Shown here piece after piece: positions 10,952-12,383 of a stretch of DNA of 64,000 nucleotides; position 1 is the stretch's first letter; each line of letters starts with the position of its first letter. Source of the DNA: Bacteroidia bacterium. GTDB lineage: Bacteria; Bacteroidota; Bacteroidia; B-17B0; Aurantibacillaceae. The stretch is taken from contig JAGNIU010000006.1 of NCBI GenBank assembly GCA_018000995.1, forward strand, positions 1 through 64,000. The letters run 5' to 3'. A program made the position numbers and the translations under genes. Below the pieces are notes generated by a model. The model worked only from the letters and a program-made list of their open reading frames with translations. It was not told where the DNA came from and ran no database searches.

Positions 10952-11083
10952 AACCCCGGAGGGGTTATATGTTTGTAAAAAAAACTATGCGCCCCCTTTT
11001 CTATCGCCGCAGCTGTACTACAGCTGCGGTGGAAAAATGATGTCTTGTCTGTTTGTCTACAAACATATTGTCCCTCTGGGACA
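10952..11083. repeat. 132-bp nested palindromic element
   Basis: The element is symmetric. A hairpin (AACCCC/GGGGTT, 10952-10966) is followed by an 11-base arm ATATGTTTGTA (10967-10977). A central hairpin with perfect 10-bp arms CCGCAGCTGT/ACAGCTGCGG lies at 11007-11029. The complementary arm TACAAACATAT is at 11058-11068, and a last hairpin TGTCCC/GGGACA at 11069-11083. It lies between two minus-strand genes, downstream of purD. It resembles REP- or MITE-like non-coding elements. No reading frame is supported. Confidence 0.75.
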
Positions 11084-11096
11084 AAAAGACAAACCT

Positions 11097-12383
11097 CTAC
11101 TTACCCCAATTCATCAAATCTTTGCCAATATCTTTGCGGTAATACTTTTTATCGAAAGTTATTTTCTCGGCATTCTTAAAACTTTTATTCACTGCATCCT
11201 GAATAGAATTTCCGAACGAAGTAACAGCAAATACTCTTCCTCCTGCCGTAAGAACTTTATCACCATCTTGCTTTGTGCCTGAATGAAATACATGTGAGCC
11301 TTCGTTTGAATCAATTCCGGTAACGACTTTGTTTTTTTCGTAGTCTTCAGGGTATCCTCCTGAAACAATTACTACCGTTGTTGCGGTTTCATTTACAGTT
11401 TCAAAACTTTTCTTGTCGAGAGTTTGAGTGGCCACACCTTCTAACAGATCTAAAAAATCACTTTTAATTCTTGGAATAACAACTTCCGTTTCCGGATCTC
11501 CCATTCGGCAATTGTATTCTATTACTGATGGTTCTCCATTATTATTCATCAAGCCAATAAAAATAAAACCTCTGTAATCTATATTTTCTTTTAGTAATCC
11601 GTTTATAGTTGGAATGACCACTTTCTCTTCCACTTTCCTAATGAACGCTTCATCTGCAAAAGGCACTGGACTAACAGCCCCCATTCCACCGGTATTTAAT
11701 CCTGTATCGCCCTCGCCTATTCTTTTATAATCTTTTGCGGCCGGTAATATTTTGTAAGACTTTCCATCCGTTAAAACAAAAACAGAAAGTTCGATGCCGT
11801 GTAAAAATTCTTCGATGACAACTGTTTCTGATGCTTCACCAAATTTTGCATCGAGCAACATGTTCTCTAATTCTTTTTTAGCTTCGTTTAAATCATTAAT
11901 AATTAAAACACCTTTTCCTGCTGCTAATCCACTTGCTTTTAAAACAAAAGGCGGTTTTAATGTTTCTAAAAATTTCTTGCCTTCTTCTACATTCACCTTA
12001 GTAAAACTTTGATAAGCTGCGGTGGGAACTCCATGCTTAATCATAAACTGTTTACTGAAATCTTTACTGCCTTCTAATTGAGCCCCATCTTTTTTAGGGC
12101 CAATTACCGGAATATCTTTCAATACTTCGTCTTGTAAAAAATAATCGTGTATGCCTTTTACTAATGGGTCTTCGGGACCAACCAACACCATATCAATTCC
12201 TTTTTCCCACACTAAAGCTTTTACCGCTTCAAAATCGGTTGCGCTAATATTTACATTAGTGCCACAATGAGCAGTGCCCGCATTACCCGGTGCGATATAT
12301 AAATTCTCTAATTTTTTGCTTTGTGCTATCTTCCATGCAAACGCATGTTCTCGTCCGCCGGAGCCTAATATTAAAACGTTCAT
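11097..12383 (-). CDS. purD: Phosphoribosylamine-glycine ligase
   Basis: GAR synthetase, second step of de novo purine synthesis, joining glycine to phosphoribosylamine with ATP; cytoplasmic. The 428 residues match the family length. N-terminal motif MNVLILGSGGREHAFAWKI, ATP-grasp motifs KASGLAAGKGVLI, EEFLHGIELSVF and NTGGMGAVSPVPF, and the metal-binding EYNCRMGDPETEVV are all present. It stands alone rather than in a pur operon. ATG start. Identification firm. Confidence 0.97.
   Translation of the reverse strand: MNVLILGSGGREHAFAWKIAQSKKLENLYIAPGNAGTAHCGTNVNISATDFEAVKALVWEKGIDMVLVGPEDPLVKGIHDYFLQDEVLKDIPVIGPKKDGAQLEGSKDFSKQFMIKHGVPTAAYQSFTKVNVEEGKKFLETLKPPFVLKASGLAAGKGVLIINDLNEAKKELENMLLDAKFGEASETVVIEEFLHGIELSVFVLTDGKSYKILPAAKDYKRIGEGDTGLNTGGMGAVSPVPFADEAFIRKVEEKVVIPTINGLLKENIDYRGFIFIGLMNNNGEPSVIEYNCRMGDPETEVVIPRIKSDFLDLLEGVATQTLDKKSFETVNETATTVVIVSGGYPEDYEKNKVVTGIDSNEGSHVFHSGTKQDGDKVLTAGGRVFAVTSFGNSIQDAVNKSFKNAEKITFDKKYYRKDIGKDLMNWGK

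Follow-up and report, generated by a model that had tools for sequence, protein, structure and literature searches.

The window analyzed here is a 64,000-nucleotide stretch of contig 34 of a 3.61-Mb Bacteroidia genome. Between purD and a gene for a 281-aa DnaJ-like or unknown protein, it carries a 132-base palindromic element built from five parts: a hairpin (A), a tail, a central palindrome, an inverted tail, and a second hairpin (A') (Table 1). A and A' are inverted relative to each other with their tails pointing inward, the arrangement of two repetitive extragenic palindromes (REPs) and a linker found in REP doublets forming hairpins (REPINs) and bacterial interspersed mosaic elements (BIMEs). 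The element is probably a nonautonomous, gene-free mobile repeat of the REP/REPIN type, whose cognate enzyme would be a Y1/HUH transposase (IS200-like TnpA) with the subclass-1.2 signature.

Table 1. Features of the element and its neighbors in the window. The tail score is the fit to a motif discovered in the flanks of transposase genes.
Feature	Position	Strand	Remarks
Five-part element: A, tail, central palindrome, inverted tail, A'	10952..11083	.	Sequence, folding, same figure elsewhere
Hairpin A, AACCCCGGAGGGGTT	10952..10966	+	6-bp stem, 3-nt loop; lies in model R1 match 10952-10981
Left arm, ATATGTTTGTA	10967-10977		Perfect 11-bp complement of right arm
Tail, ATATGTTTGTAA	10967..10978	+	TA[GA] end 19 nt from hairpin center; tail score 11.8
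Central palindrome, CCGCAGCTGTA-C-TACAGCTGCGG	11007..11029	.	11 bp, 1-nt loop; at hairpin B position
Right arm, TACAAACATAT	11058-11068		Perfect 11-bp complement of left arm
Inverted tail, ATATGTTTGTAG (- strand reading)	11057..11068	-	Tail score 12.2
Hairpin A', TGTCCCTCTGGGACA (TGTCCCAGAGGGACA in - strand reading)	11069..11083	-	Sequence and DNA fold
DnaJ-like/unknown gene, 281 aa	9994..10839	-	No Pfam match; 112 bases from element
purD (phosphoribosylamine-glycine ligase)	11097..12383	-	Stop codon 13 bases from element

A first-pass annotation had described the element as a 132-base cloverleaf with perfect 11-bp arms, and the coordinates, the sequence, and the energy minimum under DNA parameters agree with that description. 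The central stem it reported as a perfect 10 bp is present; a length of 11 bp with a 1-nt loop is slightly better. Under DNA parameters, three hairpins on a paired arm form the minimum for either strand (z scores of -7.6 and -7.3), and three elements from other genomes gave the same cloverleaf (z scores of -5.4 to -6.0). With RNA parameters the element also folds strongly (z of -8.3 on the + strand and -7.0 on the - strand, with 0 of 200 shuffles as good on either strand), and at the minimum the outer hairpins pair with each other instead of forming the symmetric figure. No direct repeat of 3 to 9 nt was found at the element edges. We rejected a miniature inverted-repeat transposable element (MITE) of a DDE transposon, as the inverted arms are present and a target-site duplication is absent. 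An integron attC site, considered on sequence only, was also rejected, as the arms lack GTTRRRY, the attC core motif.

The genome search for copies gave different results for the element and for its parts. No second copy of the full 132-mer was found in 100 genomes (its own and 99 relatives); only 3 of these gave any match, which outside the window covered the first 37 bases only. Half-units consisting of hairpin A and a tail resembling AATGTTTRTAG do recur in the same genome. Hairpins like GACCCCnGAGGGGTC followed by WAATGTTTRTAG form two clusters on contig 19 and occur at single places on contigs 69, 13, and 36. Among forward-strand matches to the tail plus 3' arm with 0 or 1 mismatch, the unselected 5' arm forms 5 or 6 of the 6 pairs in 8 of 8 contexts, but at 2 mismatches it does so in only 1 of 9 (12 loci matching on the other strand were left unscored). 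In 12 own-genome copies, 97.2% of cells pair, versus 18 to 65% when slid, and 3 of 6 pairs change on both sides. Looser REP patterns were uninformative in this genome (115 matches versus 114 in the control) and were set aside.

We trained a covariance model of hairpin A plus tail (R1) on 12 own-genome copies, with the window excluded. R1 matched the left half of the element at 42.1 bits (E of 5.4e-8 genome-wide) and found 19 matches in the genome at an E value below 0.01. Sixteen of the 17 inspected places overlap no open reading frame (ORF) of at least 80 aa, and the remaining one overlaps an ORF start; the neighboring genes are unrelated from copy to copy, and both orientations occur. R1 also matched the flanks of two transposase genes on which it had not been trained, at positions 12031 of contig 14 (E of 1.6e-4) and 2227 of contig 53 (E of 0.003), each no more than 100 bp from a Y1 gene. 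Across the 7 remaining genomes of the genus, R1 gave 43 matches (E of at most 0.05), of which 6 fall less than 500 bp from one of 18 subclass-1.2-type genes, where 0.04 would be expected. At a contig end in one congener (L168, G006 contig 32, 1-620; also L169), arrays alternate TACAAACATTTGACCCC units with CCCGGGATTTCATCCCGGG hairpins.

Three Y1_Tnp genes are present in the genome, on contigs 53, 14, and 62. The contig 53 protein (154 aa) is a Y1_Tnp at an E value of 1.2e-27, and its eight closest solved structures are transposases, led by 2xm3 (E of 2.3e-11) and including the IS608 chains 2a6m and 2vhg. The contig 53 and contig 14 proteins carry DHVH/DHIH, WQ, and YIKTQEDHH (contig 53) or YVKNQEEHH (contig 14), the last conforming to Y---Q--HH. 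By these motifs they have a class-1 core with the subclass-1.2 signature and are not class 2 (Y...NP). The first-pass annotation had suggested looking for a REP-associated tyrosine transposase; the Y1/HUH genes flanked by related units have the signature of class 1 rather than class 2. Of 296 genomes sampled from the phylum, 144 contain a match to the contig 53 protein used as a query (E of at most 0.001), not all of these matches necessarily being subclass 1.2. In L102 (G100), and also in L093 and L096, a subclass-1.2-type gene is preceded instead by one long perfect palindrome with a 14- to 20-bp stem and a 2-nt loop.

Hairpins around genes of this type are enriched and regularly spaced. We read 81 Y1 loci from the family, mostly those with the best E values, and dropped 10 without the Y---Q--H motif, leaving 71; from other families of the phylum we took 29 loci, best-scoring relatives rather than a random draw, and dropped one without the motif, leaving 28. 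Within 300 bp of the gene, noncoding DNA of the 71 family loci contains 5.19 strict hairpins per kb, versus 1.94 beyond 500 bp and 0.07 in shuffled flanks. With a looser hairpin definition, the flanks of 99 loci had 4.69 per kb versus 0.35 in 29 control loci, which came from the element's own genome and are mostly coding. Adjacent hairpins are 46 to 57 bp apart in 77 of 179 cases in the family loci (15.4 under random placement, maximum 28) and in 44 of 86 in the other families (8.0, maximum 18); the control loci gave 4 of 16, a count too small to judge.

De novo discovery between the hairpins yielded the tail [AC]A[TC][AG]TTT[AG]TA[GA]AAA, recovered in the same or a shifted form from 8 of 8 random starts and averaging 9.1 bits versus 3.5 to 4.0 in shuffled linkers. 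Geometry was counted on the 95 of 121 hairpin pairs (46 to 57 bp) with a tail score of at least 6, which are thus selected for the tail. In 92 of these 95 the TA[GA] end lies 19.5 nt from the center of A; the center of B follows a median of 31 nt past it, for an A-B total of 50.5 nt. When the nearest unit in each flank is considered, A is distal with the tail facing the gene in 57 of 76 flanks and the order is reversed in 19, the flanks of one locus not being independent. On the 3' side of hairpin B, the 95 pairs weakly repeat the tail's first half but lack TAG, as if B were an A-related hairpin whose site had been lost.

Whole five-part figures occur in other genera. A gene-blind pattern, consisting of the tails plus GG and CC, found 8 places (the window included) in 5 of 395 genomes of the phylum, and the reversed pattern used as control found 0. 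All eight have a central GC hairpin, one hairpin being mismatched. Six of the seven places outside the window have a subclass-1.2-type gene 41 to 458 bp away; the genes involved number four, since G135 and G244 each contribute two places beside one gene, and the gene in G244 is a short 110-aa frame. The seventh has no such gene in the 1.5 kb to one side, and to the other side the contig ends after 85 bp. In G014 the figure stands just upstream of the gene, 46 bp away, and is also matched by a looser two-tail pattern, which found a further one in G114, 709 bp from the gene. A scan of transposase flanks added two in G197. The two elements in G197 (L202) lie 3' of the Y1 gene, are near-identical, and are ~224 bp apart, with tails that differ by side, CAGGTGGGTAGAAA and AATATTGGTAGAAG. 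A separate long-arm DNA pattern run over a genome contig collection gave 3 stretches, two bearing titles from other phyla and the third that of an uncultured bacterium, and was set aside.

The absence of any other copy, which would have refuted the first-pass annotation, is not what we see: copies occur both as half-units in the same genome and as complete figures in other genera, and their stems covary. Over eight five-part elements, 98.2% of 224 cells pair (29 to 50% in slid versions), and both partners vary at 10 of the 28 pairs, a score reached by 0 of 500 shuffles; the rows come partly from one genome (G135 twice, G244 twice).

The history of the locus is consistent with insertion. purD and the DnaJ-like gene are adjacent in three congeners too, where the gap measures about 157, 157, and 118 bases versus 257 here; G002 and G006 can be aligned over its promoter-proximal part, and the element sequence is missing from the gap in all three. 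The congeners are too diverged for an exact empty site, so synteny and intergenic length were compared. In the purD 3' region of congeners (G002 and G006; L080 1350-1400 and L081 1345-1395), an unrelated hairpin-forming sequence stands at the place of the element. Because the same place is filled in this way, a terminator role after insertion is possible.

This leads to the alternative that the hairpins act in RNA, as a bidirectional terminator or mRNA-end protector for purD, and have been retained for that function without mobility. The position just past the purD stop (13 bases) and the other hairpin-forming sequences there are in its favor, as are the outer hairpins with their T-rich tails, which score terminator-like, one per strand. 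It nevertheless leaves unexplained why the 11-bp arms are inverted, why there is a central hairpin, and why RTA[GA] and the 50-nt pitch are conserved, as well as the recurrence beside one transposase type and the absence in congeners. We consider it improbable; any terminator activity may have come about incidentally, through insertion of the element.

We give equally little credence to a different mover, either the third Y1 gene, on contig 62, or a lost transposase, with the subclass-1.2 genes merely sitting in repeat-rich spots. Insertion hot spots could gather any repeats, and the contig 62 gene (NHIH, YIHQNP; subclass 2.6 by motif) has flanking palindromes of its own. These palindromes (contig 62, 4376-4609, L042) are of a different type, with an 11-bp TCCGAAGGATTnnnAATCCTTCGGA stem and no tail, and we rejected this gene as the mover for that reason. 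The 50-nt grammar, moreover, is seen around subclass-1.2-type genes in many families, and the gene-blind pattern lands beside them.

The first-pass annotation had also raised a structured RNA, and a noncoding regulatory RNA is very unlikely: strong folding and covariation, which do not separate RNA from single-stranded DNA (ssDNA), would suit it, but no Rfam family reached its gathering threshold on the repeat-bearing loci, matches to the element fell far below threshold, the best subthreshold match of the Rfam searches (BTnc231, at 26.3 bits versus 80.4) was discarded, the symmetric figure is cleaner with DNA than with RNA parameters, and the copies are found in both orientations, with unrelated genes on their sides, and beside transposase genes.

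The favored reading is a mobile repeat served by a subclass-1.2-type TnpA. The earlier suggestion of a MITE/REP unit moved by a transposase elsewhere is supported by the intergenic half-units, the related units in the contig 53 and contig 14 flanks, and the figure beside such genes in other genera; we infer mobility from this distribution and from the anatomy. Several observations weigh against this interpretation. The window element has no transposase gene beside it, its A-B spacings of 59 and 58 fall outside the 47 to 54 of the 95 scored pairs, and R1 matches its right half, A', only weakly (19.1 bits, E of 0.17 genome-wide). Its central palindrome does not resemble other B hairpins and was not found elsewhere in the 8 genomes of the genus at up to 3 mismatches, which also led us to reject it as an independent repeat. 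At strict settings only 42 of the 71 family loci have at least one flanking hairpin, and the two-tail pattern without hairpin bases was not enriched (6 places versus 17 in the control). Across the 95 pairs, the bases 5' of A and of B show no conserved guide tetranucleotide (at most 0.26 bits per position), and the nearest units are inverted around the gene, unlike the IS200 ends that flank tnpA. Given its pitch and its unique central palindrome, the window copy may be diverged or inactive.

A possible mechanism follows the geometry of IS608. In IS608, the left end has its guide from about +16 and a hairpin at about +20 to +41, centered near +30, and the 35-nt right-end substrate RE35 holds the guide, hairpin, and cleavage site (PMC5934647); the left and right hairpin sequences are identical (PMC7290912). 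From the oligonucleotide lengths, and assuming equal hairpins, the right hairpin would be centered ~20 nt before the cut, which puts ~50 nt between the two centers at a right-left junction. The measured 19.5, 31, and 50.5 nt resemble the derived ~20, ~30, and ~50, with the site in our repeats a candidate cleavage site and the window spacings larger. Because the measured 50.5 and 19.5 nt match this geometry, A may represent a right end, RTA[GA] the cleavage region, and B a left end.

The repeat unit consists of hairpin A, a tail ending in RTA[GA] at a fixed 19.5 nt from the center of A, and, ~31 nt beyond that, hairpin B. In the window, two such units face each other and share one central B, so that both single strands offer the same figure. 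Once a strand is exposed as ssDNA, the hairpins would fold and TnpA would bind them like IS608 ends, taking A for the right-end and B for the left-end hairpin. Cleavage would take place at the RTA[GA] tail, the candidate recognition site in the window being the tail on the + strand, and joining of the ends would give a small ssDNA circle able to insert at another site in trans. The lack of a target duplication fits ssDNA movement by a trans-acting TnpA.

Tentatively, and with more doubt than the reading of the element itself, we propose that subclass-1.2 TnpA might constitute a third kind of ssDNA transposition system between insertion sequences and REPtrons. The gene would be uncoupled from its ends, A-tail-B would be frozen right-end/left-end junctions, and the 50-nt pitch would record an IS608-type transpososome geometry; the five-part figure would be its two-strand version, with one left-end hairpin serving right ends on both strands. 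If the IS608 junction match holds, the repeats would stand midway between an insertion sequence and a domesticated REP system. Given how many of the sampled phylum genomes match the contig 53 query, this would also explain a widespread part of the intergenic DNA of Bacteroidota. A substrate with a strict grammar would make the function of subclass 1.2 directly testable with one protein and short oligonucleotides.

Among the closest known systems, the repeats resemble REP/BIME/REPIN with TnpAREP (REP-associated tyrosine transposase, RAYT), in that short intergenic palindromes occur singly, as inverted pairs, and in arrays, several per genome, and like a REPtron they gather around a low-copy Y1/HUH transposase gene. 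The REP assignment holds for this REP-like character and not for the GTAG type known for REP transposases. Known REPs have GT[AG]G 0 to 2 nt 5' of the hairpin foot (PMC6006769), the preceding tetranucleotide being most often GTAG (Corneloup et al. 2021, PMC8266576). Here, RTA[GA] lies 3' of hairpin A with its end ~12 nt from the foot, a second hairpin stands at a fixed pitch, and the enzyme has the class-1 signature Y---Q--HH, unlike the class 2 REP transposases. Lack of a target-site duplication is shared with IS200/IS605 and its gene-free derivatives (PATE), from which the repeats differ in having no detected guide tetranucleotide across genomes and a gene usually between inverted, not direct, units. 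A Y1 gene between inverted repeats also recalls the TIRYT/TIRtrons (Di Nocera et al. 2013, PMC3733652), which are mostly subclass 2.1 (PMC6006769) and whose description, in the parts cited here, has no two-hairpin pitch.

In the published Y1 survey, subclass 1.2 is defined by DH[IV]H, WQ, and Y---Q--HH, small size, low copy number, and occurrence in Bacteroidetes (Cornet et al. 2018, PMC6006769), and the contig 53 and contig 14 genes share its key motifs, small size, and low copy number. Table 1 of that survey enters REP "no" for the subclass, and its accompanying text states that these genes generally lack typical IS200 terminal structures, so that the survey, as far as these sections go, left subclass 1.2 without a substrate. 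A literature search, whose coverage excluded preprints and the majority of subscription journals, found nothing on subclass-1.2 palindromes or this repeat family. Unlike subclass 1.2 as surveyed, the flanks described here are rich in patterned palindromes.
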